A stretch of 64,000 bases of DNA from Verrucomicrobiota bacterium (GTDB lineage: Bacteria; Verrucomicrobiota; Verrucomicrobiia; Chthoniobacterales; UBA10450), in contig QHNH01000013.1 in NCBI GenBank assembly GCA_003218375.1, positions 1 through 64,000 on the forward strand. Direction: 5' to 3'. Position 1 is the first letter of the stretch, and each line of letters starts with the position of its first letter. The notes below the pieces were generated by a model that was given only the letters and a program-made list of their open reading frames with translations, did no database searches and was not told the DNA's origin. Made by a program: the position numbers and the translations under genes. This document shows positions 2 through 29,123 of the stretch, in pieces.

Positions 2-364
2 GCCAGCGCTGAAACCGGCGACAACGTGTTGTTCGATGGATTGATCCTACAGGGCGGAATACCGAAGCGGGTCCTATTCCGGGCTCTGGGTCCGTCGATC
101 AAAGTCAACGGCAACACGATACCTGGCGCGTTGCAGAATCCTACCCTCGAGCTTCATAGTGGCAACGGGACTCTCCTGGGTTCCAACGACGACTGGCGCG
201 ATGCGCCGAACGCTTCCGACATCCAAGCCACCGGGCTAGCGCCGCCGGATGATCGCGAGTCCGCCATTCTCATGACGCTGGTTCCGGGCAACTACACCAC
301 GATTGTGCGCGGCAAGAATGGGACCACCGGCATCGCCTTGGCGGAAGCGTACAAGCTACAATAA
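2..364 (+). CDS. C-terminal end of a secreted protein (5' truncated by window edge)
   Basis: The reading frame is open to the left edge of the window, so only the last 120 or so residues are visible. An internal GTG at 26 is not the true start, because the residues before it (TGDNVLFDGLILQG) continue the same domain. The segment DNVLFDG...RVLFRALGPS...LELHSGNGTLLGSNDDW...VPGNYTTIVRG resembles a small beta-rich module that I recall at the C-termini of large secreted Verrucomicrobia proteins. It probably acts outside the cell. The enzymatic or binding part lies upstream and cannot be judged. It converges with the minus-strand gene at 446-1084, with a shared hairpin terminator between them. Confidence 0.75.
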   Translation, partial: ASAETGDNVLFDGLILQGGIPKRVLFRALGPSIKVNGNTIPGALQNPTLELHSGNGTLLGSNDDWRDAPNASDIQATGLAPPDDRESAILMTLVPGNYTTIVRGKNGTTGIALAEAYKLQ

Positions 365-3471: not shown

Positions 3472-3533
3472 CTGGAGGGACGACCGCCGGTCGTCCCACT
3501 AATCTTGGGACGGGACGGCGCCCATCCCTCCAG
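3472..3533. repeat. REP-like double-hairpin element, TGGAGGGACG family, copy 1
   Basis: The outer inverted ends CTGGAGGGA/TCCCTCCAG enclose two internal palindromes (GGACGACCGCCGGTCGTCC and a GGGACGGGACGGCGCCCATCCC-type stem). The arrangement matches the copies at 5297-5354 and 6489-6578. It may also act as a terminator for amn. Confidence 0.8.
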
Positions 3534-4552: not shown

Positions 4553-4573
4553 GACGTCGGTCTGGCGAACATA

Positions 4574-4609
4574 TTTCAGCTTTTTAGCGTTTCAGTTTTT
4601 CAGCTTTTT
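4574..4609 (-). repeat. Octamer array (TTTCAGCx), left arm
   Basis: TTTCAGCTTTTTAGCGTTTCAG and further units run in the orientation opposite to the array at 5229-5256, so the small secreted protein gene between them lies in the loop of an inverted array pair. The rest of 4610-4799 shows nothing identifiable. Confidence 0.75.
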
Positions 4610-4799
4610 GTCCGAAACAGAACTTCCTCGCTCCGACTTCATTAGCTCCGGCGACGCCTTGCCGCTCGCGGCCGCGCCTGAATACGAAGCGGCCGGAGCG
4701 CGTCAATATTACGAACCACTATTGGAGCGCACATTCACACGGCGCCAAGGGAAGGCAGCCGCAGCCGTGCGCATCGCAACAAACAGAAAGGGTTAACTC

Positions 4800-5228
4800 A
4801 TGAAAATCAGTATCAAACAAACTTTAGGTCTCACCGCCGCGTCATGCGTGGCGCTGGCGTGTTCCGCGATTGCCGCGCCACCAGGGGGCGCTGGGGCCCG
4901 CGGTAATTCATCGTTCGGCATGAACCAGCGGACCGACCTCCGGACCGGTTCGGGCAACTCGTCCTTTGGAAGGACTACCGCCGAGAATGCTCGCCTGAGA
5001 GCCAACGACGCCGATGATCAAGACGATCAGGACGTCGATCGTGATAACGGGAAGACGAAGAAAACGAAAAGCGCCCGGCATCACACTTTTACGAGCTATC
5101 CTGGCAACTCCGCGTTCGGCCGCGGCCAGCGCATGAACCATCTGAGGGGGTCGGGCAACAACATCCACGGGAAGACCGTTTCGGCGAACGCGAAGCTGAA
5201 ACACGTGAACAAGAAGAATAACGATTGA
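4800..5228 (+). CDS. Small secreted protein with internal NSSFG repeats
   Basis: This 142-residue protein has a Sec signal peptide (MKISIKQTLGLTAASCVALACSAIA would exceed the useful core; cleavage near AIAAP at about 26). The mature part is strongly charged and consists of related blocks: GNSSFGMNQRTDLR, GNSSFGRTTAENARLRA, then an acidic spacer DDQDDQDVDRD and a basic stretch GKTKKTKSARHH, followed by GNSAFGRGQRMNHLR and GNNIHGKTVSANAKLKH. The paired repeats suggest a 35-residue unit used twice. No family was recognised. The gene is bracketed by inverted octamer arrays, so it may be cargo of a repeat-bounded element. Confidence 0.7.
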   Translation: MKISIKQTLGLTAASCVALACSAIAAPPGGAGARGNSSFGMNQRTDLRTGSGNSSFGRTTAENARLRANDADDQDDQDVDRDNGKTKKTKSARHHTFTSYPGNSAFGRGQRMNHLRGSGNNIHGKTVSANAKLKHVNKKNND

Positions 5229-5256
5229 AAAAGCTGAAAAGCTGAAAAGCTGAAAT
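5229..5256 (+). repeat. Octamer array (GCTGAAAA), right arm
   Basis: Three GCTGAAAA units begin directly after the stop codon of the small secreted protein gene. They are inverted relative to the array at 4574-4609. Confidence 0.8.
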
Positions 5257-5296
5257 TGAAAGCGCGCCCCGGGGAAATCCTCGGGCGCGTTTCCTT

Positions 5297-5354
5297 TGGA
5301 GGGACGACCGCCGGTCGTCCAAAATTAATGGGACGGGCAGCGCCCGTCCCTCCA
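5297..5354. repeat. REP-like double-hairpin element, TGGAGGGACG family, copy 2
   Basis: TGGAGGGACG at the left is matched by CGTCCCTCCA at the right. The internal palindromes GGACGACCGCCGGTCGTCC and GGGACGGGCAGCGCCCGTCCC are both intact. It lies at the 3' end of the minus-strand hypothetical gene. Confidence 0.85.
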
Positions 5355-5932: not shown

Positions 5933-6523
5933 GTGGATGCCGTGACCAATCCAAAATCTGGTAGGCCGACCCGCCATCGGGCGAAGCTGATCGCGATTAT
6001 CGCCGTGTCACTCCTCCTGCTCTACGCGGCGTCGCCGTATTATTCCGTCTGGCGTTTTGGCGAAGCGTTGCGCGCGCACGACATGAACGCGCTGGCCGCG
6101 CGAGTCGACTTCGACGCCGTCCGCGTCTCGCTCAAGCAACAGATCCGGGATCATTTCCTCGGCGTGCTCGCCAAGAAAAAGAAAGACCGGCTCGCCCAAT
6201 TCCTCGCTTCTTCGGCCGACGATCCGCTCGGCCGGCTCATCGACGCCTACGTCACGCCCGAAGGCCTTTTCTCGATCATCTCCGATCCCGCGCCGCTCAA
6301 GAACGCCAATTCCATTTCCTCGCTCCCGGGCGTGGACGGTTCCGCGCGCCGGGAGATCGATTGGTCGAAAGCCCGCCATGCCTTCTTCACCAGCCCGCGC
6401 GATTTCGCCGTGGACCACGAAGGCATCAAACTGCGTTTTCGCTTCACCGGTTTCGGCTGGAAACTGCACACGCTGGATTTGCAGCTTCCTGGAGGGACGA
6501 CCGCCGCGTCGTCCGGGAATTAA
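5933..6523 (+). CDS. DUF2939 domain-containing protein
   Basis: This 196-residue protein starts at a GTG and has a basic N-terminus followed by one transmembrane helix (LIAIIAVSLLLLYAASPYYS, residues about 19-38). The sequence ASPYYSVWRFGEALRAHDMNALAARVDFDAVR is typical of DUF2939, a small inner-membrane protein family of unknown function with a short helical repeat and a beta-rich C-terminal half. The last 12 residues (LPGGTTAASSGN) and the stop codon are encoded by a REP-like repeat element, so the original C-terminus has been replaced or extended. Confidence 0.82.
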   Translation: MDAVTNPKSGRPTRHRAKLIAIIAVSLLLLYAASPYYSVWRFGEALRAHDMNALAARVDFDAVRVSLKQQIRDHFLGVLAKKKKDRLAQFLASSADDPLGRLIDAYVTPEGLFSIISDPAPLKNANSISSLPGVDGSARREIDWSKARHAFFTSPRDFAVDHEGIKLRFRFTGFGWKLHTLDLQLPGGTTAASSGN

Positions 6524-6578
6524 TGGGACGGGCAGTGGCGCCTGGGAATTAATGGGACGGACAGCGCCCGTCCCTCCA
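6489..6578. repeat. REP-like double-hairpin element, TGGAGGGACG family, copy 3 (expanded)
   Basis: Same ends as copies 1 and 2. The segment GGGAATTAATGGGACGG is present twice, indicating an internal partial duplication. The left part is translated as the C-terminus of the DUF2939 protein. It is followed by AACCGATAACTCGC, a 14-mer also seen near 46.97 kb. Confidence 0.82.
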
Positions 6579-6584
6579 TAACAA

Positions 6585-9500
6585 TTAACCGATAACTCGC
6601 AGCCGCTTCGCGAAGCGCTTCCTTTGCATGTACCCAACTACGAGGAACGCCAATGCGGCTGCGCCCCAGGTGCTGGGTTCGGGAATCGCAGTCACGGTCA
6701 GCGAGATGTCGTTAAGAAGAGTTCCGTCCCCACCACTATCAAGATAGCTGATTAGGAAGGTGTCCCCGCCTTGAGTGAATGTCGACCCCTCGGCTAATCC
6801 TGAAAACGTTCCGTTGACCGCATTAGCGCTATTATTTAGGACGATATAGAACTTGTCGCCGACAGCTAGCCCGGGACCTACGTTCAATGTTAAGGTTCCG
6901 CCGCCAAGCGTTACTGAAGTGAGCGCACTCACCTGGTCATAGATCGTTCCGGCACCCGTTCCCGTCAGGCCAGCGCCGGCTGTAAGATCGAGCAAGAGAT
7001 TGGAGCCAGCAGCCAACGTCAACGCACCCAGGCCGGCGCTTTGTCCTATCTGGACTTTGCCTATATTGCCCGACGCGCTCGTTGTTCCTACAGCTAAAGT
7101 GCCACCCGGATTCCCGGCCGAGCTCACCGTCACATCGGCGTCGATGAGACCGTTGCCGACCAGGGTCGTGCCGCTATTATTTACAGTGACGGGACCTCTT
7201 CCCAGCGCGCCGCCATTGGCGCTGTTAGAAATCAAGGTGCCGCCATTGATGTCGGTACCACCCGTGTAGTTGCTGGTCGTGCTCGTCATCGTTTCAGTGC
7301 CGGTCCCTGTCTTGATGAGCTTTACGAATCCGCTGCCCGATCCGTCGTGATCCGTGATCGTCCCGCTGAACGAACCTGAGGTATCGCCATTGCCGATGGT
7401 CAATGTCTTTGCGCCGCCACCTCCGCTGGGCGCTTCGTTGAGGATTGTGCCACTGGAGCCATTGAGAGCCCCGACATTTTGGTTCGTGCCGTTTAGATCC
7501 AACGTGCCGCCGCCCATGGTCAAGGTTCCGGAGATAGACCCTAAGGTTCCAGTCCCGCTTAGTTTCAGAATACCGGCGTTAACGTTAGTGCCACCGGAGT
7601 AGCTATTGATGCCCGAGAGCGTCCACGTGCCTGCGCCTGTCTTCGTCAGGGAAGTTGCGAAGCCGGTGCTATCAACAATAGCGCCGCCGATTTCGCCGGT
7701 GCCTGCGGTGGAGCCCTGTAGAGTAAGACTCTTGTTACCGAGCCCGGCGGCAGTGTTGGTGCCGGTGAACTTCAGCAAACCGCTGGTGCCCGATTGATCG
7801 ATAATCGCGCCCCCTGTCGTACCGTTGAGATTGATTACCTTGTTCGTGGTGTCGCCCGTGCCGGTGTAGAGTAGAGTTCCGGTAGTTGCACTGCTTCCGA
7901 AGTTAATCGTCGTGCCTGCACCGACGTTGCTACTCACACCCGAGTCGCTAATAGTCGAGACACTGAGCGTGCCATCGGTAATTGTCGTGTTGCCGGTGTA
8001 CGTATTCGCGCCCGAAAGGGTCCAGGTTCCAGTACCGGTCTTGCTGACGCTTGTATTGTTTGTGCCGGAAAGATTATCGACGATTTTGCCGCTGATGGTG
8101 TTGCCGGTCGTATTGCCCCGGATAGTTAACGTCTTTGTGCCAGCGCCTGTCGCCGTAAGATCCGCGGATAAAATGAGTCCACCCGTTGCGCCAGTTGTAT
8201 CGATGATCCCGCCGCCGGTGGTGCCGCTGAGGTTAAATACCTTGTTGGTCGTTTCACCTGCGCCGGTATACAGCAGGGTCGCGCTCGTCGAACCGTTGCC
8301 GAGGCTAATATTACCGGTCCCGAGATTGCCACTCGCACCGGCATTACCAAGGTTCGAAACGCTGGTCGTGCCAGCACCAAGGGTCGTCCCGCCGCTGTAG
8401 GTGCTATTACCGGCGAGAACCCAAGTCCCTGTTCCATTCCCCGCCCTCGTCAAGGTATAGCCGTTGCCTCCGTCGCTAATCACGCCACCGACCGTGAACG
8501 TGCTTGATCCGCTGATATTTAATATCGTGCGGTTGCCCGTCAGCAAGACGGCGCCTGTTCCGAGATTCAGATCTCCGGCGCCACCGCTGCCACTCACGCT
8601 GACGGTAAAATCGCCACCCCAGGTCTGGGCATTGTTCGTTGTTAAGGTAAGCCCCGCGTTGGTGCTGTTGGCGATTGTGCCACCGTTTATGGTGAAGGTT
8701 CCAATTCCAAGGGCAGATGCGTTGTTGATGTTGAGCGTGCCGGTCGAGAGCGTCAGGCCGCCGCCAAAGGTGTTCGCGCCGGAAAGGGTAAGCGTGCCTG
8801 CGCCCGTCTTCGTGATTCCGAAGTTATTGCCGCCGTCAGAGATTACCGAACTGATCGTCATGGTTCCGGCAGCATTAAAACTTCCACTCTGGCCAAGAAC
8901 GGTATTGAGGATCGCGGTGCCATTAGTTCCAGTAATCACGAAGGTACTGCCGGCAGTCGCAAAGAGTAGATCACTCGCGGTACCTGAGACGCCGTTTCCG
9001 AGGTCGCCCGCCCCACCCAAAGTCAGCGTGCTTGTCGTGCCGCTGGTGCCGTTGCGAAGGGTGAACGTACCTGTGGTAGCCAAAACATCGAACGACCCAA
9101 CGGTGAGACTGCCATTGCTAAAGGTCCTGATGCCGGTTGTCGCGCCCACCGGGAAGACGGCGTCTTCGCTCACGGTTGGGACATGTCCGAGACTCCAGTT
9201 GGTACCAGTGAGAACGCTGCCCGTTGTAGTGCCAGTGTAGTTATTGGTCGTGTTAGTAGTGAGCGGACCATCCGGCACCGGCTCCGGCGGGAGCGTCGAC
9301 GGCGGGAGTGGTGGGCCTGCTTCCGCTTGGCGCACGAGAACCGGGGACGGCGCGAGCTTGCCGGGCAGACTTGGAGTGAAGACCGCGTGCGTGCCGGAGT
9401 AGGACGAACTCGCTACTACGGGCGCCAGCTCCAGGAAGCGTGGATCGCCCGCGCGGTCCAGCGAGAAATAATAATTCGCGCGCGCGCTGCTCGAGCTCTG

Positions 9501-9752
9501 GGCGGGGAACGCGTTCATGAGCCAGATCGCCGCCATCCGGCCCATCGTTTGTTGAAAGCTGATCCCAGGCGCTTTCGCCGCGGGCGCGTCCGCATCGGCC
9601 TCCGAGAGGAAATCGCTTTCCGTTTGCTCCACGATCATCGGCGGCTGGAACATGCGGGTGAGCGCGCTTACGTATCCGGCCGTGCAGGCCAGAAGAATTG
9701 CCGCCACGATTAGCCCCGCTAGCGGGATCCCTCCGCGATGTTCTCTTTTCAT
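6585..9752 (-). CDS. PATR-repeat surface protein with PEP-CTERM anchor
   Basis: A predicted exported protein of about 1055 residues, starting at MKREHRGGIPLAGLIVAAIL, a signal-anchor-like segment; the longer ORF start is less likely. An N-terminal globular region is followed by a Pro-rich linker (PPLPPSTLPPEPVPDGP). A long beta-solenoid then carries autotransporter-associated beta-strand repeats, seen as recurring KTGAGTWTLSG, NTYTGNTTI and GGTLNI units. The C-terminus has the PEP-CTERM signal: IPEPSTWG, a hydrophobic helix (AAALAFLVVGYM) and a basic tail (QRKRFAKRLR). It is the kind of substrate expected for the exosortase at 26.6-28.3 kb. It is not a true autotransporter, since no beta-barrel is seen. 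Confidence 0.88.
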   Translation of the reverse strand: MKREHRGGIPLAGLIVAAILLACTAGYVSALTRMFQPPMIVEQTESDFLSEADADAPAAKAPGISFQQTMGRMAAIWLMNAFPAQSSSSARANYYFSLDRAGDPRFLELAPVVASSSYSGTHAVFTPSLPGKLAPSPVLVRQAEAGPPLPPSTLPPEPVPDGPLTTNTTNNYTGTTTGSVLTGTNWSLGHVPTVSEDAVFPVGATTGIRTFSNGSLTVGSFDVLATTGTFTLRNGTSGTTSTLTLGGAGDLGNGVSGTASDLLFATAGSTFVITGTNGTAILNTVLGQSGSFNAAGTMTISSVISDGGNNFGITKTGAGTLTLSGANTFGGGLTLSTGTLNINNASALGIGTFTINGGTIANSTNAGLTLTTNNAQTWGGDFTVSVSGSGGAGDLNLGTGAVLLTGNRTILNISGSSTFTVGGVISDGGNGYTLTRAGNGTGTWVLAGNSTYSGGTTLGAGTTSVSNLGNAGASGNLGTGNISLGNGSTSATLLYTGAGETTNKVFNLSGTTGGGIIDTTGATGGLILSADLTATGAGTKTLTIRGNTTGNTISGKIVDNLSGTNNTSVSKTGTGTWTLSGANTYTGNTTITDGTLSVSTISDSGVSSNVGAGTTINFGSSATTGTLLYTGTGDTTNKVINLNGTTGGAIIDQSGTSGLLKFTGTNTAAGLGNKSLTLQGSTAGTGEIGGAIVDSTGFATSLTKTGAGTWTLSGINSYSGGTNVNAGILKLSGTGTLGSISGTLTMGGGTLDLNGTNQNVGALNGSSGTILNEAPSGGGGAKTLTIGNGDTSGSFSGTITDHDGSGSGFVKLIKTGTGTETMTSTTSNYTGGTDINGGTLISNSANGGALGRGPVTVNNSGTTLVGNGLIDADVTVSSAGNPGGTLAVGTTSASGNIGKVQIGQSAGLGALTLAAGSNLLLDLTAGAGLTGTGAGTIYDQVSALTSVTLGGGTLTLNVGPGLAVGDKFYIVLNNSANAVNGTFSGLAEGSTFTQGGDTFLISYLDSGGDGTLLNDISLTVTAIPEPSTWGAAALAFLVVGYMQRKRFAKRLRVIG

Positions 9753-10087
9753 ACCGATCAACGCCCTTCCTGGAAAGTTCCTACCAGAACAGCGTTCCCG
9801 GCCGGAATTGTCGATAAAAAACTGCAATTTCCAGACACTTTTTTCACCCCGCCCCTTTTCCGACCTCCAGCCTTCGCCAAGGCTACGGCTTGGCAGGCCG
9901 TCCCTGGCACGCCGTAGCCTTTGGCGTAGGCGGCTTCCCGGTATTCAAACTGCTAATTAGACCGCGTGGGCATCACTCAACTCTTACGCGTTCTCTTCTA
10001 CGAGATTCCTCGGGCCATGATCCTTGCCCCCTGGCGACAGAAGCACCGCGTCCGCCTCCGGCGCGTCATGTTGACCGTGCCGTTCTA
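9753..10087. other. Intergenic region: surface-protein promoter side and GCCAAGG repeat
   Basis: No gene is supported here. Close to the surface-protein start the motif AATTTCCAGA (9826-9835) recurs in two other surface-protein upstream regions. At 9875-9926 is a large imperfect palindrome (CGCCAAGGCTACGGC/GCCGTAGCCTTTGGCG). The remainder is unassigned. Confidence 0.6.
9875..9926. repeat. Palindromic repeat of the GCCAAGGCTACGG family
   Basis: Inverted arms CGCCAAGGCTACGGC and GCCGTAGCCTTTGGCG (one-base bulge) are separated by about 21 bases. Related sequence occurs near 46.9 kb and inside the glycosyltransferase gene at about 40.12-40.15 kb. Confidence 0.75.
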
Positions 10088-10207
10088 AAAAGCCGAACGC
10101 AGTGGCTTTGTGTTGTGGTAAAGTATGCGGCGGATGACGCGTTCGTCTTGACCGCGTATCTCACCGACAAACCGAAACGAGGCAACCAGATATGGCCGAT
10201 AAAGTGA
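10088..10207 (+). pseudogene. 3' remnant of a small gene upstream of DUF2283
   Basis: In this frame the peptide QWLCVVVKYAADDAFVLT continues into AYLTDKPKRGNQIW. It resembles, from memory, the C-terminus of small proteins encoded directly upstream of DUF2283 genes, and its stop codon overlaps the DUF2283 start by 16 bases as in an intact operon. Upstream the frame runs into repeat sequence with no plausible protein, so only the 3' end appears to survive. The identification is tentative. Confidence 0.4.
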
Positions 10208-10401
10208 AGGTGTGGTTCGATAAAGAGGGAGATTTCCTGGAAGTGACGTTTGCTGAGCGCGAGGGTTATATGCGCGAAACAGCGCACGATGCAGTCATGG
10301 AGCGGGTGGATCAGAGCGGAAAAGTAATCGGTTTTTCCATCCTCCAAGTAAGCCGGCTGGCGATGGAAAAGCCACTCGAAGCCGAACTGGTTTCTCAGTA
10401 G
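10192..10401 (+). CDS. DUF2283 domain-containing protein
   Basis: This 69-residue cytosolic protein has the DUF2283 pattern: a strand pair VKVWFDKEGDFLEVTF, a variable middle, then VIGFSILQVSRL. Such proteins frequently sit next to small toxin-like genes and are suspected antitoxins, though this is not established for this copy. The ATG lies inside the 3' remnant of the preceding gene. A second small ORF, HicB-like, follows 52 bases downstream on the same strand. Confidence 0.75.
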   Translation: MADKVKVWFDKEGDFLEVTFAEREGYMRETAHDAVMERVDQSGKVIGFSILQVSRLAMEKPLEAELVSQ

Positions 10402-10453
10402 CGAAACACTACCAGGAGCGAGACCTCAAGCGGGCTATTCAACGAGTGAAATC

Positions 10454-10684
10454 ATGAGCAAGACATCTGATCGTTACGTAAAAGTGGTGGCGTGGAGTGA
10501 AGAAGACCAATGTTATGTAGGTCGTTGTCCCGGGCTCATGTTGGGCGGAGTGCATGGCAGCGACGAGCGAGCCGTCTATGCTGAATTGTGCGAAGCCGTC
10601 GATGAGTGGATTCGCTTGCATGAAGCCGAAGGCCGGCCGCTTCCCAAATCGACATCGCTTCGTGAGATCGAAGCGATGGTCTGA
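10454..10684 (+). CDS. HicB-family antitoxin-like protein
   Basis: A 76-residue protein with the degraded-RNase-H-like HicB fold signature: YVKVVAWSEEDQCYVGRCPGL, GVHGSDERAVYAELCEAVDEW, and a short C-terminal extension. Full HicB proteins usually carry a DNA-binding helix-turn-helix or ribbon-helix-helix segment; none is evident here. No HicA-like toxin is found on either side, so it appears to be an orphan. Its neighbour is the DUF2283 gene, which suggests a decayed toxin-antitoxin island. Confidence 0.65.
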   Translation: MSKTSDRYVKVVAWSEEDQCYVGRCPGLMLGGVHGSDERAVYAELCEAVDEWIRLHEAEGRPLPKSTSLREIEAMV

Positions 10685-10790
10685 TTAGTTGCGGCCGTAG
10701 GTGCAGCCGAGGACCCAATCCCTGGAGGGATGACCGAGCCTGGCCTGAGCGACGCCGAAAGGGTGTCGTCCTCGATCTGCAATTAGATCA

Positions 10791-10880
10791 AAAACTGAAA
10801 CGCTGAAAAACTGAAAAGAAACGTCGAAATGCTAAGAAGCTAATTTCAGCTTTTCAGAGTTTTAGCGTTTCAGCTTTTTT
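10791..10880. repeat. Empty inverted pair of octamer arrays
   Basis: The left arm 10791-10818 (AAAACTGAAACGCTGAAAAA and on) pairs with the right arm at about 10850-10880 (CTTTTCAGAGTTTTAGCGTT and on) over roughly 28 bases with few mismatches. The loop of about 32 bases holds no gene. The right arm encodes the last residues (KKAETLKL) and stop of the PATR protein. A decayed TGGAGGGA-family element lies just before it (about 10722-10772). Confidence 0.82.
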
Positions 10881-13238
10881 CCCGAAGCGCTTGCGCCCCA
10901 TGTACCCAACTACGAGGAACGCCAATGCGGCTGCGCCCCAGGTGCTCGGCTCGGGGACGGGGACAAGCTCGAAGTAGCCGTTGAACGCTATCTCCGTCGC
11001 GCCGGACCCGATCAGATTGCCCGCGTCATCGGTGAACTGGAAGGAAGCAAGCTGCGCATCCGTTAACCCGGTGCTCGAAATAAAGAGCAACCGATCGTTT
11101 GTCGCCGCGCCGCTATCCACGAATTGGGTTCCAGTCCAGTGCGCGATCGTGACCGCATTGCCGGCTGTATAAGTCAGGCTAGCAAACAGCAGGTTGCTGC
11201 TGTTGGCGCTTGTGAAATCAATTGTCGCACCCGAGGTCAGCGTAAGCGCTCCCATCGCCGCGGTTGAACCGGCCGCGCCGCCGGCGGGGCCCTCGTTAAG
11301 TCCACCGGTATTAAATGTGCCGCCATTGAGGTTTATGGTCGCGCTATTATTGATACGATCATTTACGGTGTTGCTTCCGCTGAGGAGTAGTGTGCCACCG
11401 GAATTGACCGTAATTCCTGAGGTGTTAGCTAGCTTCCCGGTGGTGGTGGATCCGTTGTTGGCGATTTCCAGCGTGCCGCCGCTCGCGCTTATTGTCGTCG
11501 TGCCGGTGTAAGTATTATTGGCGGTCACCGTCAGAATATTAGCGCCACTTTTCGTAAGGTTACTCGCGACCGTGTTAGCCCCAGCATTGTTGGTAATCAC
11601 GCCGCTGATTGTGATCGCACCTGTGCCATTGATCGTTAGTCCGCGTGCTGTGTCGCTCTCAGCCAAGTATACATTGCCGCTCAGAGTGGTAGCAGCCGAG
11701 TTGTTTACGGTAAGCGTGCGGCTCAATGCTCCGGAACTCGTGAAGCTGCCACTAATTGTCAGGTCATTCGCGCCCCCAATTATCCCGTTGATTGCCAGCA
11801 CAACATTGTTAGATATCGAGCGCGCGCCGTTACTGGCTAGGATCGTGCTGCCGGAATTGGTCGAGAATGTGAGTGTGCCCGAGCCCAATGCACCGTTGTC
11901 CCCAATAGCTAATGTGCTTGGGCCGAGCAGCGTGGTTCCCCCAATGTATGAGTTAGCGACATTCAAGGTAAGAGTGCCGCCTCCTGTTTCCGTCACTGAC
12001 CCCGTTCCAGTGATAGCGCTACCACTGAAGTCAGTACCCTGCGTGACGGCGTTGCTCCGATTGATCGTCAGATTTCCGTTGTCAACGATTGAGCTACTTG
12101 TAGAAAGGGTCCCAGTTGTTGCTCCACTTCCGAGTTGTAGAGTACCGCCGCTAATCGTTGTCGTGCCGGTGTAAGTGTTTGCATTGGCAAGTACCAACGT
12201 GCCGTTGCCGGACTTCGTCAGGCTAAATGCGCTACCGCCATCGGCAACCGCCCCAAGTGTTAGAACCGTCGTTCCGCCCCCAGCAGGATTAGTCGTGCTG
12301 AACGTTGCATTTCCTGTCAAAGTCGTGGCACCGAATGTTACTCCGGCCGTGCCTCCGGTAACGCTTGTCCCGCCGGCAATCGTCAGTGTTTGTGCGCCAA
12401 TTGACAAAGTGCCAAAGGTGTATGTGAACCCATTTCCAGATGTAGAACGATCCGACGTGATCTGCGCGTTGGCTGTCACCGTTGTGTTCCGACTGAGACT
12501 CGTGGTTGAAGCATGCGCTAATTGCAAAATTCCACCACCTAAGGATAGAGTTCCTTGCCCCAGAGCATTTGAGCTGCCCGACGTGATAACAGTGCCGCTC
12601 GTCAGCGTGAAGCCACCGGTAAAAGTGTTAGAGGCACTTAACTTCACCGTACCGGAAGTGTTAACCACTATTGATCCTGTAGTTCCGCTTACAACGCCGG
12701 TTAACGCCGTCGTTCCCGACGCATTCGTTCCACCAAGCGTGAGGGTCTTAGTGTTCAGATTAAGCCCTCCCAAACTCAACGTACCGGCGTTATTCACGTA
12801 AAAGCCTGTGTTGTTGGAAAGTGTCACGGAAACGTTCGTGCCAATAGTAAGATTATGATTCGCCGAGTCGTCTAGGATGATCCCTGCGTTAGTCTGGCCA
12901 CTCAGCGTTGCGGTCCCCGTGATAGTCAAAGTTCTCGAACTCGCCGCAGTAATGGACACGTCCTGGCCCACTCCAGTAGCCAGCCAGAGACCCTGAGCTG
13001 TTCGCGCAGCATCGAGGGCTGGCTGATTTGAGAACGTCGTGTCAAACTTTGCCGACACCGTGGTCGACGGAATAGTGTTCGGATTCCAATTCGTGCTTGT
13101 ACCCCACGTGGTATCTGTCGTGCCTGTCCACTCCGACGTGGTTGTGTCCGCCGCCTGCGCGGATTGGCCGAGCGTGAGGACTGCGAGCGCTATGCAAATA
13201 GCGAGGCCGTTGCGAATTTTGATCCGGGTCGTCATCAA
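10854..13238 (-). CDS. PATR-repeat surface protein with PEP-CTERM anchor
   Basis: A 794-residue exported protein with a signal peptide (IRNGLAICIALAVLTLGQSAQA). It opens with the WTGTTDTTWGTSTNWNPNTIP module that commonly precedes PATR solenoids, then carries many KSGNGTLVLANANTYTGTTT-like repeats. The C-terminal part has NGYFELVPVPEPSTWGAAAL, a hydrophobic helix and GRKRFGKK, a PEP-CTERM sorting signal. The final KKAETLKL and the stop come from an octamer repeat array. A heptamer array lies immediately upstream of the start, in place of a recognisable ribosome binding site. Confidence 0.88.
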   Translation of the reverse strand: MMTTRIKIRNGLAICIALAVLTLGQSAQAADTTTSEWTGTTDTTWGTSTNWNPNTIPSTTVSAKFDTTFSNQPALDAARTAQGLWLATGVGQDVSITAASSRTLTITGTATLSGQTNAGIILDDSANHNLTIGTNVSVTLSNNTGFYVNNAGTLSLGGLNLNTKTLTLGGTNASGTTALTGVVSGTTGSIVVNTSGTVKLSASNTFTGGFTLTSGTVITSGSSNALGQGTLSLGGGILQLAHASTTSLSRNTTVTANAQITSDRSTSGNGFTYTFGTLSIGAQTLTIAGGTSVTGGTAGVTFGATTLTGNATFSTTNPAGGGTTVLTLGAVADGGSAFSLTKSGNGTLVLANANTYTGTTTISGGTLQLGSGATTGTLSTSSSIVDNGNLTINRSNAVTQGTDFSGSAITGTGSVTETGGGTLTLNVANSYIGGTTLLGPSTLAIGDNGALGSGTLTFSTNSGSTILASNGARSISNNVVLAINGIIGGANDLTISGSFTSSGALSRTLTVNNSAATTLSGNVYLAESDTARGLTINGTGAITISGVITNNAGANTVASNLTKSGANILTVTANNTYTGTTTISASGGTLEIANNGSTTTGKLANTSGITVNSGGTLLLSGSNTVNDRINNSATINLNGGTFNTGGLNEGPAGGAAGSTAAMGALTLTSGATIDFTSANSSNLLFASLTYTAGNAVTIAHWTGTQFVDSGAATNDRLLFISSTGLTDAQLASFQFTDDAGNLIGSGATEIAFNGYFELVPVPEPSTWGAAALAFLVVGYMGRKRFGKKAETLKL

Positions 13239-13239
13239 A

Positions 13240-13270
13240 AAGTAGGAATTAGAAAGTAGGAAGTAGGAAA
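13240..13270 (+). repeat. AAGTAGG heptamer array in 5' leader
   Basis: AAAGTAGGAATTAGAAAGTA followed by further AGTAGGA units directly precedes the start of the PATR gene, in its mRNA leader. Confidence 0.75.
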
Positions 13271-13358
13271 AGGGAGGTCGGAAATCAGAGGACGGCAGAA
13301 ATTCATAGGCTTGTCGTCCCGAGAGGAAAGGCGGATTGGAGCAGGTCGAGAACGCGGC

Positions 13359-13433
13359 GTCAACGAAATTTCCAGAATTATCTGAGAAAAGTTATTCACA
13401 CGTAAGAACTCGGGCCGGGCCCCCCGAGTTCTT
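13359..13433 (-). promoter_or_regulatory. Conserved intergenic block A with terminal hairpin
   Basis: On the minus strand a hairpin (AAGAACTCGGG/CCCGAGTTCTT, 13404-13433) is followed by a segment closely matching 24196-24265, including the identical 20-mer of sequence GTTATTCACACGTAAGAACT read on the plus strand and the AATTTCCAGA motif. Each copy lies between a TPR gene's 3' end and the start of a surface-protein gene. It may be a terminator plus promoter region carried along in a duplication. Confidence 0.6.
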
Positions 13434-15282: not shown

Positions 15283-18200
15283 CTAGGGAACGCAATGGGC
15301 AGAGTTATTGCGTACAGTGGTGGTGTCGCCCACGTTCACTCCGCCATCGAGGTTAACGTCGTACTGGAAGTTAGTGTTATCCAGGGTCACGCCGGCATTG
15401 TCGCGCACAAGAAGCGTATCGCCGGCGTTGACGATTCGATCCGTATTAACGTTGCCCCAAAGGAAGCCAACCGGGACGCTGCCCGAACCTCCCGTGCTGC
15501 CGTTTGTACCGGTAACGCCGGTAGCCGATAAGGTAAGGACCTGCTGATCGGTTACTCCGGTAAGAGTAACAATCATGTCGTTCCCGCTAAAGCTGACGCT
15601 ACTGACGCTCCCAGTGCCGACCGGAATATTGTTGTCGCAGTTTGAAGTGTGATTCGTGACGTTCGCGCTGCCGCCGTTTACCGGAGTATCGAAAGTCAGG
15701 ACAACGGTGTAATTGCTGGTCCCGTCACTCCGACCTTCTATGCCTGAATTGCCGGTAAGCGGCAGCGGCAGGTTAAAGGTGCCGGCTCCGCCGCCATGGG
15801 TCATACGCGAAACCGCGGAAACAAGGACAGGTGCCGGAGTAGCGGTGGGCGTCGCGGTGGCGGTTGCGGTTGCCGTCGCAGTCGCGGTTGCGGTAGCCGT
15901 CGCAGTCGCGGTAGGTGTTGCCGTGGCAGTGGCAGTTGGCGTCGGGCTTGGTGTCGGCGAAGCCGCTACGTTGCAAGCGTTAGGCAAAAAGACATTGGTA
16001 ACTCCGATGTCGTCAAGATAGAAGCCGGCGTAATCCGCGGATGGGTCGGAAGTGAATCGCCAGCGGAACTGGATGGTATCGCCCGGGGTCAACCCCGTGA
16101 GTAAGTGGCAGCGGCGGCCATAAGAGGAAGGGGTAGCGCTGGTAACCCAACTGGCGCAGGCCGTGCCGCTACCCAGTGGGCCGGTAATGACTGGTGTGGT
16201 GGTGACGTAGCCACAGGCGTTGACCGGCGGGCTACCCGTACACGATAGCGTGCTCCAGTCGGAAGTAATGTCTGTAACGAGGCATCCGTTCCCGGTCGCG
16301 TTACTTGGTGCGGAAACAGTGGTCCACGCCCCGCCATTGCGCGAAAACTCGACGGCTATGCCATCCCAGTTGTATTCCAACTGGTGGCGTTCCCAGTAAG
16401 TCAAGTTGATCGTGCCCGAGCCCACGGTCAGAACCGGCGTTTGGGCCAAGGCACATCCATTGTCCGAGTAACGAGCGCTGGCTGTGGGTCCGGCGTTACG
16501 ATACGCGTAAGCGCCGCCGGAGGTGTGGTTGGCGCCTGAGTCGTCGGTGGTATTGACGAAGCGCCAGATCGGGTCGCCGCTATTGCCAACGTTGAGTTGG
16601 AGGAACGCAGTGACATCACCGCCGCCATCCGACCAGGTTCCGGTGCTGCCCTGCAAGCCCGAGCCATAAGGAGTGCCTGCGACGATGACGCTGTTGGATT
16701 CTTCGTTACCTCCACCGCATTCGCCGCCGTTACCGGTGCTGTTGTCCTCGGCGCGGACGACATAATAATAGGTGGTGCCACTGGTGAGGTTGCTGGTATC
16801 GGTGTAAGAGCTCGGGCCGGGAGCGCAGGTGGCAATACGATTAGCCGGTGCCGGGACGAAGTTCGGCGCCGTGCCGCGGAAAACGTTGTAGCGAATGGTT
16901 GGGGTGAGCGGGCAACTCGAGGTGGCCGGCGACCAGTTGATTGTAACGCCGCAACTGGACGAGTTAGTGCTAGTGGCGCTGGTGGCTCCCGCAAATGTCG
17001 GTTTCAGGTTGCAAGAGCCGGTTGCGGTAGCACTCACCTTTCCGCTTCGCACCAAGGCCTGGCATTTGCCGGCTGGATCAGTGGCCGCGAGGACCCGATA
17101 AGTGTAAGTAAGGCCGCCCTGGACTGTGGTATCGGTGAAGCTGCTAGACGTGCCTGAGACTGAAGCTAGCGGCTGATAAAGACCTTCGCTACCGGCGGCG
17201 CCGAGCGCACGTTCGATGGCATAGCTGCCCGGCGTAGGCGAGATGCCGCTCCAGGTTATCTGGATCTGGTTAGGCGCAATGGCTGACGCGCTGAGAATCG
17301 TCGGAGCGCTCGAAGGACGAGTTGTGCAGGTGGTGGCCGCGCATTGTCCGGCGCCGGCGCCCGCCGGAAAGCGGGCGGAAGCGATTCGAGTTTTCCAGTT
17401 CGCGTTGCCGCTGCCAGTGCTGCCACCGGAAAGATAATACTCGTTCGCATGCCAAAAGGTGCAGTCGTCGGCCGGATCGATACTCACACTGGTGTAATCG
17501 CCCCAGCGCTCAGGATTGGTCATGGTGTTGACGATGTTTCGCGTGCCGGTAAAGATGATGGTTTCTGGACCCGTCATTGTGCCTAACGGGTCGCTCTTGG
17601 CCCGGCCGGTGTAGCGAATGGAATGGTTGTCGGTGCCATTGATTAGGCCAGAGGCGCTGTAACCGACGAGGATGTTTTCAGCGCCATCCATGCTGATCGA
17701 GGGCATCCAGCGGGACCGGCCGTTGGCCACGTCGGCCACGGTGCCCTGCTGATAAGTGCAGGGGTAGGACGAGCAGACGGCATCGGGCTGGCCCGAAATG
17801 CGGAAGTCGTACCAGCGGACGCCGGAGACAACGCCGGTGATTCCAGGATCAACCGAATGAGAGATGACCAATGACTCATGATCGATGAAGTTTCGATAAG
17901 CCAGGCGGAACATGAGGCGATCAGCCAGGGAATCAATGACCACACTGCTACCGGGCTGCGGGATACAAGCTCCGCCGCCGCAGGCAGCCGCGGCGGATGC
18001 AGTAGGCATGACTGCTTGAAGCGTTCGGGTGGTGTTTGCCGGCGTGGCGAAATCCACCTTCATCCGATAGAGATACATCCCGGCAGTATGGATCGAGACG
18101 AAGATGCCCGGAGCGCTTCCCGGAGGCGGCGCGAATCCGTCCAGGTCCGCGGGCATGTGGCCGCCTTCGGTAGCGTCGATGATGACTTGCCAGGTGGCGG

Positions 18201-19408: not shown

Positions 19409-20080
19409 TCAGTTAGCTGTCCGCCGGAGTCTGGAAATTCTGCGTCGCTGGGTGAAGAGCAGACCGGCCAGGATCAGACCGCCCGCGGTCCAGGTGGCCG
19501 GTTCAGGGACAGGGACGACAGTAATAAAGTAATCCGCCTCGGGAATCGCGAAGGTATGACCGGCAGAATCGGTGATTACCGAGGTTTTGCCCCCGGAGAA
19601 AGTGTTGCTGATGGTGTAGCTTCCTGGCGCCGCGTTCGCGTCGATCGAAACGGTAATGGTAGCGACCAGGTAAGTTCCCGCACCCAGCGCCGACTGGCCG
19701 CTCGGCAGCAGCGCTCCCAAATCCTGCGGGTTGGACGGACTGAGATTTTGCGGATAGGTGAGGTTGGATTGGAGGTCGGTGAAGGGGCTTCCCGTCACAT
19801 CGCGCAGGGTGATCGCAAAGTTAAACGGCGATCCCGCGGGACTGGTCTGCTGAAACCAGTAGGAAAGACCTTCGAGATTCGAAATATTGCCTCCGGGCGT
19901 AAAAGCGATGTTGATGGTGAAGCTAAAGCTCGATCCCGCGGTATAAGTTCCGGCGTTGGGAGTGCCGCTGCCGTCGTTGTAAATAAACAGAGCGCTCTGA
20001 GCCGACGACGACGAGACGGCGGCGAAGGAACAGAGGAACGTCGCGGCTGCCGCGAGGAGATACTTTTTCATAATGTTCAT
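19409..20080 (-). CDS. PEP-CTERM sorting domain protein
   Basis: A 223-residue exported protein with signal peptide (MKKYLLAAAATFLCSFAAVS, cleavage near SSAQS). A single beta-sandwich domain follows (SALFIYNDGSGTPNAGTYTA, FTPGGNISNLEGLSYWFQ), resembling cohesin-like or invasin-type beta domains, but this is not firm. The C-terminus has VPVPEPATWTAGGLILAGLL then QRRRISRLRR, a complete PEP-CTERM signal. It lies in tandem with the two large dockerin-like proteins, only 28 bases after the upstream gene's stop, so co-transcription is plausible. Confidence 0.82.
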   Translation of the reverse strand: MNIMKKYLLAAAATFLCSFAAVSSSSAQSALFIYNDGSGTPNAGTYTAGSSFSFTINIAFTPGGNISNLEGLSYWFQQTSPAGSPFNFAITLRDVTGSPFTDLQSNLTYPQNLSPSNPQDLGALLPSGQSALGAGTYLVATITVSIDANAAPGSYTISNTFSGGKTSVITDSAGHTFAIPEADYFITVVPVPEPATWTAGGLILAGLLFTQRRRISRLRRTAN

Positions 20081-20108: not shown

Positions 20109-23100
20109 TTACGGCAGGAAATGTCCAGAATTATTGCGCACGATCGTGGTGTCGCCCACGTCCACTTGTCCATCGAAATTGACGTCGTTCTGGAAATTTG
20201 TGCCATCCAGGGTCACCCCGGCGTTGTTGCGGACCACAATCGTGTCGCCCGCGTTGACGAAGGCATCGCCGGTCACGTCACCCCAGAGGAAGCCAATGTT
20301 GACGCTGACGGAGGGCAACGTTGCCGTTCCCGGACCCGAAACATTACTGGCCCGGAGGGTCACAGCTTGTTGATCGGTCACGCCGGTCAGCGGAATGATC
20401 ATACTCGTGCCGCTAAAGGTAGGCGTACCGGCGGTGCCGGCGCCCGAAGTGACAGTCGCCGTTCCGCTGGTCACCGTTCGATCGAAGGTGAAGACGATCG
20501 TGTGCGTACCCGATCCGTCGCCGCGCGGTTCAACGGTGCGGCCGTTCAACGATAGAGGCAGATTAAATGTGCCCGCGCCATTATGCGTTTTGCGTGCGCT
20601 CGCCGAGCTAAGTAGTGGCGGCACGAGGTCTGCAAAACAGACGGTGGCATCGTTCAAGGTCGGCGTGTTAGCGGTGTTGCTCGTACTCAGGAGCGCTTTG
20701 TACTTCAAATAACGATTGCCGTTAAACTGAGACAGCGATGCGCCACTGCTGAAGAAGGTCGAGGCCGTGTTATCCGGACCGACAAAGTTGAAAGGTCCAC
20801 TCGAGCTGTTGCTGGCCGCCGCCTGGAACTGAATATTCGTGCCCGATGGCAGGGCTGTATTGTTCCACGACAGGGTAGTCCAGGTGGGAGTAGTCCCGAC
20901 GACCGCCCCGCTGTCTTTCGTCGAAGAAATGAAGTTGCCAGAGGTCTGGTAGACGTTCGGGGTAGTGTTGTACTCGATAAAGAGCAGGTCGTTGTTGGCA
21001 TTTTGGCCCGTCGGGTTCGCACAGCTAGTCGAGCTGCAAATTACCCGGCGTCCCCCGGCGTAGACATCGGAACTCGCGGCGGCCCATGCCTGCGTGCCTG
21101 TGCGCGCCGCAGCAAGTTTAATCACAAGGCCATACTGGACGCCGGCCGTGAGGGTATTGTTGAAGGTGAAGGTAATGGTGGTGCTGGAGCCGCTGGACGT
21201 GCCCGCCACTGTCGAGGACGCGATCAAGCCACCCGCGGTCATCACAGGTTGACTGCCACTTGTCGTACGTAGCTCAAGAGTGATGTTGGGATTCGTGCCG
21301 GAGCAACTCGCGCAGAAAAGGCTGGTATCCACTTTCGTTACTGCTGCCGTGACGCTGGGAGTGAAAGTCTGTCCGATAAAAGATGTGTTACTGAATCCGT
21401 ACCCCGATCCAAAACCATTGTCATCAGCATGCTGGTCTCGAATATTCGGGCCTCCCGAGGCGACCGTCAGTTTGACGTCTCCCGGGCTCGAGGCGATCTC
21501 TACATTGGTTCCCGTCCCTGTGGTAAAGTCACCGAAGTTCGTATCGGTAAAGCAGCTACTCGAACTATTGGGAGTAAGTGCCAGATCTTGCACTGTCGTG
21601 CTGCCGCCACTTACTACAACTCCATTAACGGAAACCGCACTGTAGCCTGCCGGACTTGCGGATACGGTGTAGGTTCCGGCGTTGATGCCTGGCATTTGAT
21701 AGAAGCCGCTGCCGTTCGTCGTGGCGGACAAGGTTCCGGCAAAGACGACTACGTTGCTTACGGGGCTACCAGCGGAAGTGACCGTCCCTTGAAGCGTTCC
21801 GAATGCTGTTCCAGCGGAACCGTAAACGACCGCGGCCGACGCGGCCGAATCGCTCGTCATTGGGGTAAGCGCTGTACCGGGGCAGTTGTTCTTCGCGCGA
21901 ACGAAATAATAATAAGTGGTGCTAGCTACGCCGGTGCTATCGACATAGCTGGTCGCCGTCAGGCCAGAGGCTAAAGCCGCGCCGCCCGGGAAGACCGGTG
22001 TGGTGTTGCGATAGACAGAATAGGTTCCGTTGGTTGCATTGGTTCCCCAGCCCGCTGGCGCGCTCCAGGTCACGGCAACACTCGGCGTCGTCGAAGAATT
22101 AACTGCTGGAGCCGAGACGGCAGATGGCGCAGAACAGTTGATAATGGCAGAAGTGCCATTGTCTTCTCTGCGAGTGGGCGATTGGGTATCCGCGGTGGGG
22201 AAGAATGACCGGGAATCCGTCCATAGGGGATGGACCTGGCGGTTTAAGGCAGCTATGCCTGAATAGTCGCCATACTGGTTACCGTTGAAGTTAGGATTGT
22301 CGACGGTGTTCTCGTCCGAATAATTTACGTTATTTCGCCAATTCGCGCCGTTGTCATCGACCAGAATGTTCGACTCGAAAGTTACGCCACCGTCCACGGA
22401 ACGCGCATAAACCGACTGAGTCTTGCGATTGATGGGATCGATCCGTGAATCGAGCCACGACATGTTGACCGAGCCATCCGATTGATCCACCGCGAGCCAC
22501 GGGAAGAACTGGGTAGCACCCCAGTTGTCATCATTTACTTTTAATCGCGTTGACCATGAAGTTCCGCCGTTGGTCGAACGAATCATGTAAACATTGAGGT
22601 CCGCTCCGGTGCTCGTACCTGAGGGAAAATCGGTGAAGGAGACATAAATATTGCCGAAGAAAGCCGAGCTTGGATTTCGATCTACATCGATGGCAGCAAA
22701 GCTGTTAATACCGCGGGTATTTTGCGGGGGCGGAGTGTTATTCGAACCGAATGATTGCAAAGCAATGGTCCCCGAAATAATCACCGGTGCAGTCCAGGTC
22801 GCGCCGCCGTCCGTCGATTTCGAGAAGACAGTGTTCTCGACGTTGTAGCGCGTCCAAACGGCATAGACCGTCCCGTCCGGTGCGATGGCAACGTTGCCGC
22901 CTATCGCGCCTGTGTTGCTCGATGGCTGGACCGTCGTCCAAGTCAAACCGTCATCGGAGTGTGCAATTCGTTCTACGTTTCCTTCGTCCCAGATCACATA
23001 AAAACGTCCGGGAAATGAGTGCGCCTGGCCCGAGGTGTTATCGATAGCAAACATTGGTTTGTCGTCAAAGTTGGTGGTGAGAGTGATTCTGTTAACGACC

Positions 23101-24195: not shown

Positions 24196-24265
24196 GTCAA
24201 TAAAATTTCCAGAAATTACCAGAAAGTTATTCACACGTAAGAACTCCCGCTAAAGGCGGGAGTTC
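24196..24265 (-). promoter_or_regulatory. Conserved intergenic block B with terminal hairpin
   Basis: On the minus strand GAACTCCCGC-CTTTA-GCGGGAGTTC (24241-24265) is a perfect 10-bp stem. It is followed by the same sequence as block A (13359-13433), ending in TCTGGAAATT and TTGAC. Its position after a TPR gene and before a surface-protein gene is also the same. The hairpin could end TPR transcription and the tail could hold the next promoter. Confidence 0.6.
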
Positions 24266-26570: not shown

Positions 26571-26577
<7 letters not shown>

Positions 26578-28340
26578 GCTTCGACGAGCTCCGGCACCAT
26601 TTTGGCAAAGGCAGCCTCCGCCTGGTCCGGCGCGCCCTCTCGTGTCGTCATCATCACGAACTCCATCACTTGCTGGCCGAGATGACGGCGACCTTGCACG
26701 ATCAGGCTGATTCTTTCGCGGCGGGACCACTCGGAGGGTTCCTGGGCAAACTCTTCGCGCGCGAGCGAAGCATCGCTCTCGTTGCGAACCCGGTCTTCGC
26801 GCAGGCAATAGAAGGCATGCGCAAAACGCTGGCGCCCGCCATTCCCCGCTCCGGGCGGTCCCTGCGAAAACAGGAAATGCCGGAACGGCAGCGAAAACCC
26901 CGGCGACACCGCGTACGACCGGATGCCGTAATCGCCTGTCTGGACCCAACCGCTCGCGGGCAGACAGACATCGGGCCGGTGCAGATTCGCGAGCAGCGCG
27001 CTATTGCTCCCCGCCCGCCAGCGAAAGAAATAGAGCAGCGCCGCATCCTCTGTCCTCTGATCTCCGCCCTCCGTCTTCTGCCCTCTGTCTTCCGTCCTCT
27101 GAATCCTCCACATCGCCCCACGGCCTTCATCAAAACGGAGGATTCGCTTTGTCCGTTCATCGAGATGGATCTCGTGAAAATCCTTCGCCGTCTCCGGCCA
27201 GCGCGCCGTCCATCGTTCCCGCGCCACCAGCCCCCGTTCATGCATCCGGTACCAACCCTCGACGCCGGCTTCCACGGCAAGAAGGTAGAGAAGGCAAAGT
27301 AGGAAGTAGGAAGTAGAAAGTAGGAAACGAGGCCGGAGGGCGTTTTCTGTAGCGGCGGCCTCTGGCCGTCGGAAATTCTCTCCGTTTCCTACTTCAGACT
27401 TCCTACTTCCTCCTTTTCCAAGCCACGCCGACAGGCCTAACGATCCAACAAATACTACCCCGACAATTGTGTATCCCGCCACGTCGTGCCAGCGGTCGAC
27501 GGCGGAAATATTTTGGGTCGCCGCGACCCAGACCAGAAAGAACGCGCGAGCGAAATTCGCCACGATCGCGATCGCCAGCGCGCCGAAGACGAGCACGCAA
27601 CGCTTCGCCACCGACAGCCGCTTCAATTCGCCGAAGAGCAAACCGATCATCAGCGACGTCTGGAGCGACCGCACTCCGCTGCACGCTTCGTTCACGCCCA
27701 CCACGCCGCTACTTACCCGGATCAAATTCCCTTCCAGCTGCGCTGGCACGCCGAAGAGCGTCATCACTTCCGTCGCCACCGCCGCCACCGTCCGCATCAG
27801 GCCCTGCACGACCGGGTCCTCGATCGGCGAAACCCACGGCACCGCCACGAAGAAGAAACAGATCGGAAACGCAAAATGCCGCAGCCACGGCTTGCCTCCC
27901 GCGGTCCAGATGAGGAGCAGCGTCAAGGTCGCGACCGCCGCCGTGTGCACCCAATCCACCGGCCGCCAATCCGGATTCGCCACTTCAAACAACCGGACCG
28001 GAAACAAAACGATCAGCGCTCCAATCGCGATCCCAATCGCGATTCGATTCCGCATTCCACCTTCCGCGTTCCGCGTTTCAGCCGCAGGCCGATCTTCCCA
28101 CCGCAGCAAAAAAAGGAACGCTGCGAAGAACGGCACGAACCATCCGTAACTGTATTGCTCGTTGACCGACCATTCGCCGCTGAGATGCCGGCAGAGCACG
28201 AACCAAAGCGCGAAGAGCGTGAGCGCGATGAGGGCCAATTGCGATTTCGCGATGGTCGAATTCAAGATGGCAATAAAAAGTAGGAAGTAGGAAGTAGAAA
28301 ACGGCAAATCGATCGTCTGAGCCCGGCCGCCCGAATCCAC
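26571..28340 (-). CDS. Exosortase with fused C-terminal EpsI domain
   Basis: An inner-membrane transpeptidase-like enzyme expected to process PEP-CTERM proteins. Multiple transmembrane helices fill residues about 33-310. The catalytic triad is visible: Cys in NEACSGVRSL (about 220), Arg in NFARAFFLV (about 265) and His in DRWHDVAGY (about 285). An EpsI-like domain follows, with LLYFFRWRAGSNSALLANLH and RPDVCLPASGW as hallmarks. Residues about 311-348 (SRKSEVGNGEN to LLSTSYFLL) and about 412-428 (RTEDRGQKTEGGDQRTED) are encoded by dispersed repeats and look like in-frame insertions. The N-terminal 26 residues also read a heptamer array; a TTG at 28265 is a better start. The stop codon lies in another array. 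Confidence 0.88.
27297..27418. repeat. Inverted heptamer-array element inside the exosortase reading frame
   Basis: The left arm AAGTAGGAAGTAGGAAGTAG and on (to 27328) pairs with the right arm GTTTCCTACTTC...CTTCCTACTTCC (27384-27418). The loop contains GTAGCGGCGGCCTCTGGCCG, a second repeat also found at 13.48 kb. The whole element is translated as the junction between the exosortase and EpsI domains. Confidence 0.8.
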
Positions 28341-28376: not shown

Positions 28377-29123
28377 GTGCCCGCGACACAGCAGATTCTC
28401 GGTCTGGAATTTTTCGAAGGCAGCGCGCCGTCCGCGGTTGATGAAGCGCTAGCCCGCCGCGGTTTGGTCGTCGCGCCGTCGGGAACCTGTTTCACCCGGT
28501 TGCAGTGGGACGAAGTTTATCGAAAGGCGATGACCCGGGCTGATCTGGTGCTGCCGGATAGCGGCTTCACGGTTTTGCTATGGCGGCTGCTGCGGCGTCG
28601 GCGCCTCAATCGAATCTCCGGCCTCGCGTATTTGAAAGAGTTGCTAGGCCGTTCCGAGTTTCGAGAAGATCGATCCGTTTTGTGGATCCTGCCCAACGAA
28701 GAGGCGCAGGCGAAAACGCTGGGGTGGCTCCAAGCTCACGGATTCGCGATGACCGCGGAAGGTTGCTACATCGCGCCGATGTATGGACCGCGCGTCGAAG
28801 ATCCAATGCTCCTGGAACGCGTTCAATCATCCCAGCCCGGCCACGTAGTCATCGCCCTGAGCGGCGGCGTGCAGGAAAAACTCGGATTCCTCTTGCGCGA
28901 GAACATCGGCCCTCGCCCGGCGATCCATTGCATCGGCGCCGCGCTTGGCTTTGTCACCGGCTACCAAATCGCGATCCCGAACTGGGCCGATCGCCTTTAT
29001 CTCGGCTGGCTCCTCCGGCTCCTTGCGAATCCGCGTCGCTTTTTCCCGCGCGCGATGAGTGCGCTCGCTTTGCCGGCGCTGATATTGAAATACGGCGAGG
29101 GTCTGCCGCCGCTGAAAAGCTGA
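28377..29123 (+). CDS. WecG/TagA/CpsF family glycosyltransferase (GT26)
   Basis: A 248-residue enzyme starting at GTG. Family features are TCFTRLQWDEVYRKAMTRAD, LVLPDSGFTVLLWRLL, RISGLAYLKELL, the P-x-x-E-containing WILPNEEAQA, and HCIGAALGFVTGYQIAIPNW followed by WLLRLLANPRRFF. GT26 enzymes transfer a sugar, often ManNAc(A), to a lipid-linked acceptor at the cytosolic face of the membrane in polysaccharide or teichoic acid synthesis. It opens the plus-strand exopolysaccharide cluster. Its final residues LKS and the TGA stop come from the first GCTGAAAA units of an octamer array. Confidence 0.85.
   Translation: MPATQQILGLEFFEGSAPSAVDEALARRGLVVAPSGTCFTRLQWDEVYRKAMTRADLVLPDSGFTVLLWRLLRRRRLNRISGLAYLKELLGRSEFREDRSVLWILPNEEAQAKTLGWLQAHGFAMTAEGCYIAPMYGPRVEDPMLLERVQSSQPGHVVIALSGGVQEKLGFLLRENIGPRPAIHCIGAALGFVTGYQIAIPNWADRLYLGWLLRLLANPRRFFPRAMSALALPALILKYGEGLPPLKS

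Follow-up and report, generated by a model that had tools for sequence, protein, structure and literature searches.

Recent copying of a PEP-CTERM tag core between two PATR-repeat protein genes as the probable origin of near-identical tag DNA in a verrucomicrobial exosortase island

The 64,000-nucleotide stretch of DNA analyzed here (the window), from an uncultured soil-type member of the Verrucomicrobiota, contains a run of minus-strand genes that is part of an exosortase island. The exosortase, a member of the EpsH family and the predicted enzyme for the tags described below, is encoded at 26571–28340 (−) (TIGR02602, 115.4 bits with a cut-off of 105.55; PF09721, 158.7 bits). Two genes of this run encode PATR-repeat proteins with C-terminal PEP-CTERM tags. 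Gene 1 (6585–9827, −) is a mechanically called open reading frame of 1080 aa with a putative start (TIGR02601, 100.6 bits; PF12951), and gene 2 (10854–13238, −) is a mechanically called frame of 794 aa (PF12951). The PEP motif, a hydrophobic stretch and a basic tail near the stop codon were readable in both tags. TIGR02595 (cut-off 16 bits) gave gene 2 15.4 bits, or 16.2 bits with its neighbors included, which was counted as over the cut-off, and gave gene 1 14.5 bits, below it; PF07589 (cut-off 20.7) gave gene 2 20.1 bits, also below, and had no listed match to gene 1. Further, an N-terminal hydrophobic stretch was readable in both frames, the starts of which are uncertain. By analogy with other PEP-CTERM proteins, the tags presumably serve for recognition by the exosortase at the envelope.

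A DUF2283 gene (10192–10401, +) lies between the two tagged genes. A third tagged gene (19409–20080, −) carries a tag of different DNA at 19507 and has a sub-threshold family match only, and a further tagged frame was found at 58969 (+). TPR-like-looking genes in the island gave a sub-threshold match to PF12895 only, and the plus-strand frames after position 29000 were read by eye as putative EPS glycosyltransferases and a flippase. Searching window positions 1–30000 against Rfam gave no match at the gathering threshold. Several repeats are present. Short intergenic repeats of the GCTGAAA and GTAGGAA types occur at 2644–2697, 4573–4616, 5228–5257, 10843–10886 and 13226–13293; the CTGAAA-type copy at 10843–10886 (−; family D9), which is 84% like that at 4573–4616, enters the coding 3′ end of gene 2 and supplies its last residues. 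An inverted-repeat element, GGAGGGACG...CGTCCC, lies at 3473–3532, 5297–5354 and 6490–6578 and has many matches in the window's own genome and in the sister genomes; its sequence suggests a family of interspersed palindromic repeats. Two large proteins have in common a 203-bp 3′ end at 75% identity (15284–15486 and 20110–20312), which is another C-terminal module common to different bodies; one of the two has a Dockerin_1 match below the cut-off. Protein-end DNA at 2–364 (+) had many matches across the eight genomes of the genus searched, including one at 95% in the window's own genome (contig C36).

The cores of the two tags, each 57 bp long, lie 4.3 kb apart at 6627–6683 (−; PEPSTWGAAALAFLVVGYM) in gene 1 and 10899–10955 (−) in gene 2. 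The original prediction had been that the tag DNA at about 6632–6680 and 10900–10952 is near-identical on two different protein bodies, and both parts of it held. The cores were identical at 55 of 57 positions, with one exact run of 48 bp (6627–6674 and 10899–10946), and 15 of the 17 codons for the same residue were the same. Upstream of the cores, only 33 of 120 positions agreed in an ungapped comparison (14/57 in the last 57 bp), so that the idea of equally similar upstream regions, which would have spoken against the prediction, was not borne out; the 45 bp 3′ of the core agreed at 17 positions. The blastn match stretched to 77 bp at 90% because a few codons just past the core, those for RKRF, are also alike in the two genes. 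The bodies showed a distant PATR-type protein similarity only (31% over 545 aa). Identity in the tract was far above that of its flanks and ended sharply, which is the pattern by which gene conversion is recognized. When the columns from −120 to +120 were shuffled 20,000 times, a run of 48 bp never arose and the longest shuffled run was 19. Further, the probability that the 16 residues STWGAAALAFLVVGYM, if encoded twice independently, would receive the same codons was about 8e-8 under the codon usage of the window.

Within the window's own genome, the tag DNA had two copies only, and the next match was 20 bp long (E 0.06). The third-gene tag agreed with the tags of gene 1 and gene 2 at 29/57 positions each. 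When 11 tags, taken here and at the counterpart loci of two genomes of the same genus, G020 and G025, were compared, the gene 1 tag, the gene 2 tag and a G020 tag that lacks a protein body formed a trio with 52–55/57 identity, and every other pair had 27 to 48/57. The eight other tags matched the gene 1 and gene 2 cores at 29–39/57, the bodyless G020 tag being the exception at 52/57. At E ≤ 0.01, matches to the tag DNA were found in 3 of 83 genomes of the family, namely the window's own, G020 and G027 (a 22-bp match). A degenerate pattern for GAAALAFLVVG found two stretches in the genome_contigs collection, which may omit the window's own genome: one in PLCM01000010.1 and one in a betaproteobacterium. 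A widely spread mobile tag thus had no support in the 83 family genomes or in the pattern search of genome_contigs. A tag pattern, which misses about a quarter of tags through its last letter, identified tags judged real by eye in the window's own genome, G020, G025 and, once, G022; the remaining four genomes of the genus yielded none.

The counterpart loci in G020 (contig C25, locus L024) and G025 (C52, L034) are syntenic with the window around the same upstream genes. An element upstream of the tagged-gene cluster (13356–13409, −) recurred at that cluster with 100% identity over 54 bp in G020 (L024, 12493–12546) and 98% over 52 bp in G025 (L034, 13253–13304); a second copy in the window (24196–24248, −) had about 84% identity with those of G020 and G025. 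The element contains TTACGTGTGAATAACTTT, and its end, by eye, carries a TTGAC(G/A) box and, about 17 bp further on, a −10-like box. The element is possibly a common promoter that includes an operator. No tagged gene in the sister-locus stretches compared looked closely orthologous to gene 1 or gene 2: outside the tag, protein identity was about 30–38% over the longer parts, with a short piece of 62.5% over 48 aa. Between the window's genome and G020, 64% of same-residue codons were identical (1,585 codons in five genes), and in the core the corresponding values were 14/15 and 15/15 (P 0.012 and 0.0013). By this comparison, the core appears only mildly more conserved between the two species than ordinary genes, so that part of its likeness may be simple inheritance.

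The bodyless tag of G020 (L024, 10581, −) has the core of gene 1 and gene 2 within a 33-aa frame with its own ATG (L024, 10489–10590, −), and its tail resembles that of a neighboring tagged gene, X2 (38/45). The bodyless tag of G025 (L034, 8189, −), in a 46-aa frame, has no common start codon, by eye, between the upstream stop and the tag. Its core agreed with that of gene 1 at 35/57 positions, and its tail is the 26-bp tail of gene 1 (6592–6617, −), which recurs at L034 8086–8111. Apart from the G025 site, we found no further copy of this tail in the window (up to 3 mismatches) or in 156 loci, from which loci covering the same window place had been set aside. Gene 1 is thus a mosaic of its own body, the gene 2 core and a G025-type tail; gene 2 combines its own body, the same core and the CTGAAA-repeat tail; and the G020 bodyless tag joins an upstream DUF2283 gene, the same core and the X2-like tail. 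The tract and its flanks conflict in their affinities: the tail of gene 1 sides with G025 and its core with gene 2, as judged from short sequences without a tree. Such conflicts among body, core and tail fit repeated short-tract exchange better than a single duplication.

We therefore consider a recent event of ectopic homologous recombination (gene conversion) probable, in which gene 1 acquired the tag core of gene 2 or of a close copy. Gene 1 and gene 2 are neighboring predicted substrates of one exosortase locus. About 48–57 bp would have passed from the core of gene 2, or a close copy, into the gene 1 tag; the existing likeness of the tags would have supplied the homology for pairing, and the unlike bodies and tails would have halted the tract at the ends of the tag. 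A tag-sized block would then need no special mechanism, since tags can pair and the unlike sequences on both sides stop the tract. In this group, PEP-CTERM genes would repeatedly undergo such exchange at their 3′ ends, the limits of the tract differing from case to case, and bodies would meanwhile be lost, truncated or replaced. We infer the recency of the transfer, its non-reciprocal nature, its direction and its enzymology from the arrangement of the sequences, and gene conversion, reciprocal exchange and template switching would look alike in them. The direction onto gene 1 seems likelier because gene 1 keeps the tail shared with G025 and not the G025 core; this hangs on one 26-bp tail in one other genome. 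Further, the G025 tag is possibly a poor witness, since it lacks a body and its core enters a short-repeat stretch.

The first alternative is that the whole gene was duplicated in tandem, and that the bodies then diverged fast while selection on the protein kept the tag. Gene 1 and gene 2 are indeed adjoining PATR proteins that still align at the protein level, and Haft et al. (2006; PMC1569441) count PEP-CTERM protein sets among those that evolve fastest within a genome. Also in favor of duplication, most near-identical tags of G127 sit on bodies that can be aligned. As a baseline, we picked 90 tags from four other genomes of the order (among the matches listed, 30/36 in G127, 30/45 in G112, 16/20 in G038 and 14/14 in G037) and compared 1,080 pairs, leaving out the pair L097/L105 of G038, in which both loci carry the same picked tag. 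Mean tag identity was 0.53 in G127, 0.47 in G038, 0.46 in G037 and 0.53 in G112, values slightly lowered by at least four wrong frames in the pick (L073 and L081 in G127; L129 and L141 in G112). Six pairs had an identity of 0.85 or above, all of them in G127, and in five of these the bodies aligned at least partly; in the remaining pair, L066/L085, the alignment was confined to the tag and its 3′ flank. A stricter pick from 25 of the 30 G127 loci gave a mean of 0.566 over 300 pairs; 12 pairs reached at least 0.8, and 3 of these at least 0.9. In G153, a tag pattern gave 56 matches, which were inspected by eye. Gapped upstream identity was set aside because it was about 0.72 even for flanks that look unrelated. 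Most near-identity in this sample goes along with gene duplication, and its restriction to the tag is rare; the near-identical G127 tags on alignable bodies are ordinary duplications, and they count against the conversion reading.

For gene 1 and gene 2 themselves, we nevertheless consider duplication unlikely. Selection on the protein alone gives no reason for the identical codons of the core next to upstream DNA that is near chance, and the tails of the two genes are unlike. Further, in G020 the neighboring genes X1 and X2 present the mirror image of gene 1 and gene 2, in that divergence is greater in their tags than in the body sequence next to them: identity was 471/480 at the end of the body and 48/57 in the tags (Fisher P 2e-5), with 82% identity over 341 bp near the 5′ ends.

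The second alternative is the capture of a bodyless tag, in which a deletion or insertion fused a body to the front of a tag that had been duplicated or left behind; the tag would then be the older resident and the body new. Possible starting material exists at the syntenic locus, where G020 has the 33-aa bodyless frame and G025 has both the 46-aa frame and a truncated tagged gene whose frame spans 108 aa (L034, 9484). In each genome, the first bodyless tag is downstream of a DUF2283 gene (181/217 bp identical between the two; the G020 copy is readable in two frames), and in G025 a DUF4926 gene sits between the DUF2283 gene and the tag. Tags in short frames that share their 3′ ends with long genes were also found in two other genomes, G108 and G132. 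In the more distant G108, two genes with frames of 83 and 618 aa, the bodies of which do not align, share 237 bp at 98.3%. This block starts 12 bp before the PEP motif, spans the stop codon and passes, by eye, a hairpin; a 101-bp piece resumes the match after an insert, and the block had three matches in two places of its own genome. At about 7639–7919 of L089 (G108, C138), roughly 280 bp interrupts the copied 3′ block, with a 39-bp stretch of the block on both sides, which is suggestive of an insertion. The 83-aa frame is downstream of a putative Fic-type gene, as read by eye. In G132, two tags 1.7 kb apart, in frames of 90 and 556 aa, share 191 bp around the tag at 97%. The G108 block, copied on unrelated bodies, is at the same time a parallel case in favor of the conversion reading. 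Since the G108 and G132 cases came from 18 regions selected largely because of a short frame or equal scores, they speak for recurrence of the pattern and say nothing of its frequency. A tag in a short frame of G038 (L114) was dropped as a candidate bodyless tag because the locus spans just 1584 bases and unread bases occur in the translation. Against capture at gene 1 and gene 2, the block shared by these genes ends within the coding region on both sides, without the 3′ flank expected of a fusion, and the bodyless tags may as easily be remnants after the loss of a body. Capture is thus quite improbable here.

Chance, codon bias or an assembly artefact is hardly credible: the genome is a draft of 52 contigs, but the probability of coincident coding is minute, the other tags differ, the same core is present in the separate assembly of G020, and a usual sequencing read is longer than 48 bp. 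Codon bias in particular, which the original prediction had named as what would undo it by making all tags alike, does not yield the near-identity as a by-product, because other tags differ both at this locus and in the four surveyed genomes.

Returning to gene conversion, the prediction of a recent conversion or modular shuffling of the sorting tag largely stands. Recent copying between different bodies is the best reading of the data, and the term module goes beyond them: the tract here is a single block of about 50 bp between neighbors, and in other cases the body or the 3′ flank was copied too, so that exchange is not tied to the tag as a unit. A broader scheme, which we regard as rather unlikely, is that PEP-CTERM tags with their 3′ ends are lasting acceptor cassettes. 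Bodies would be lost or swapped ahead of them, bodyless tags would form a reserve, and recombination would match the tags to the local exosortase. If this were true, the conserved upstream element would be the fixed promoter end and the tag the fixed other end.

Overwriting by neighbors would provide a route by which near-matching tags arise on unrelated proteins of one genome, in contrast to convergence or descent wholly by whole-gene duplication. Further, the patchwork nature that tags can have, and the existence of tags without a body, make trees of tags and gene counts based on tags only potentially misleading. Gene conversion and concerted evolution of bacterial paralogues leave tracts of high identity with sharp ends in otherwise different paralogues, which matches the arrangement here. 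Unlike in the usual conversion of paralogues, the tract here is about 50 bp long, covers the sorting signal only and joins barely homologous bodies. Among the matches listed in our literature searches, most subscription papers being outside their coverage, none linked PEP-CTERM tags to gene conversion, and none of those listed for PEP-CTERM and recombination concerned tag recombination by title or opening of the abstract.

At the protein level, PEP-CTERM tags are already known as lineage-expanded modules. Haft et al. (2006; PMC1569441), in the text accessible, presented the tag as a module that has expanded in particular lineages, and noted that genes are often duplicated and lost. The tags analyzed here have the same anatomy as those of the PEP-CTERM/EpsH exosortase system of that study (TIGR02595, PF07589), with an exosortase in the same island. 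The accessible text argues from protein trees and orthologue counts, whereas the present locus adds a tract confined to the tag at the DNA level, tags that are patchworks and tags without bodies.
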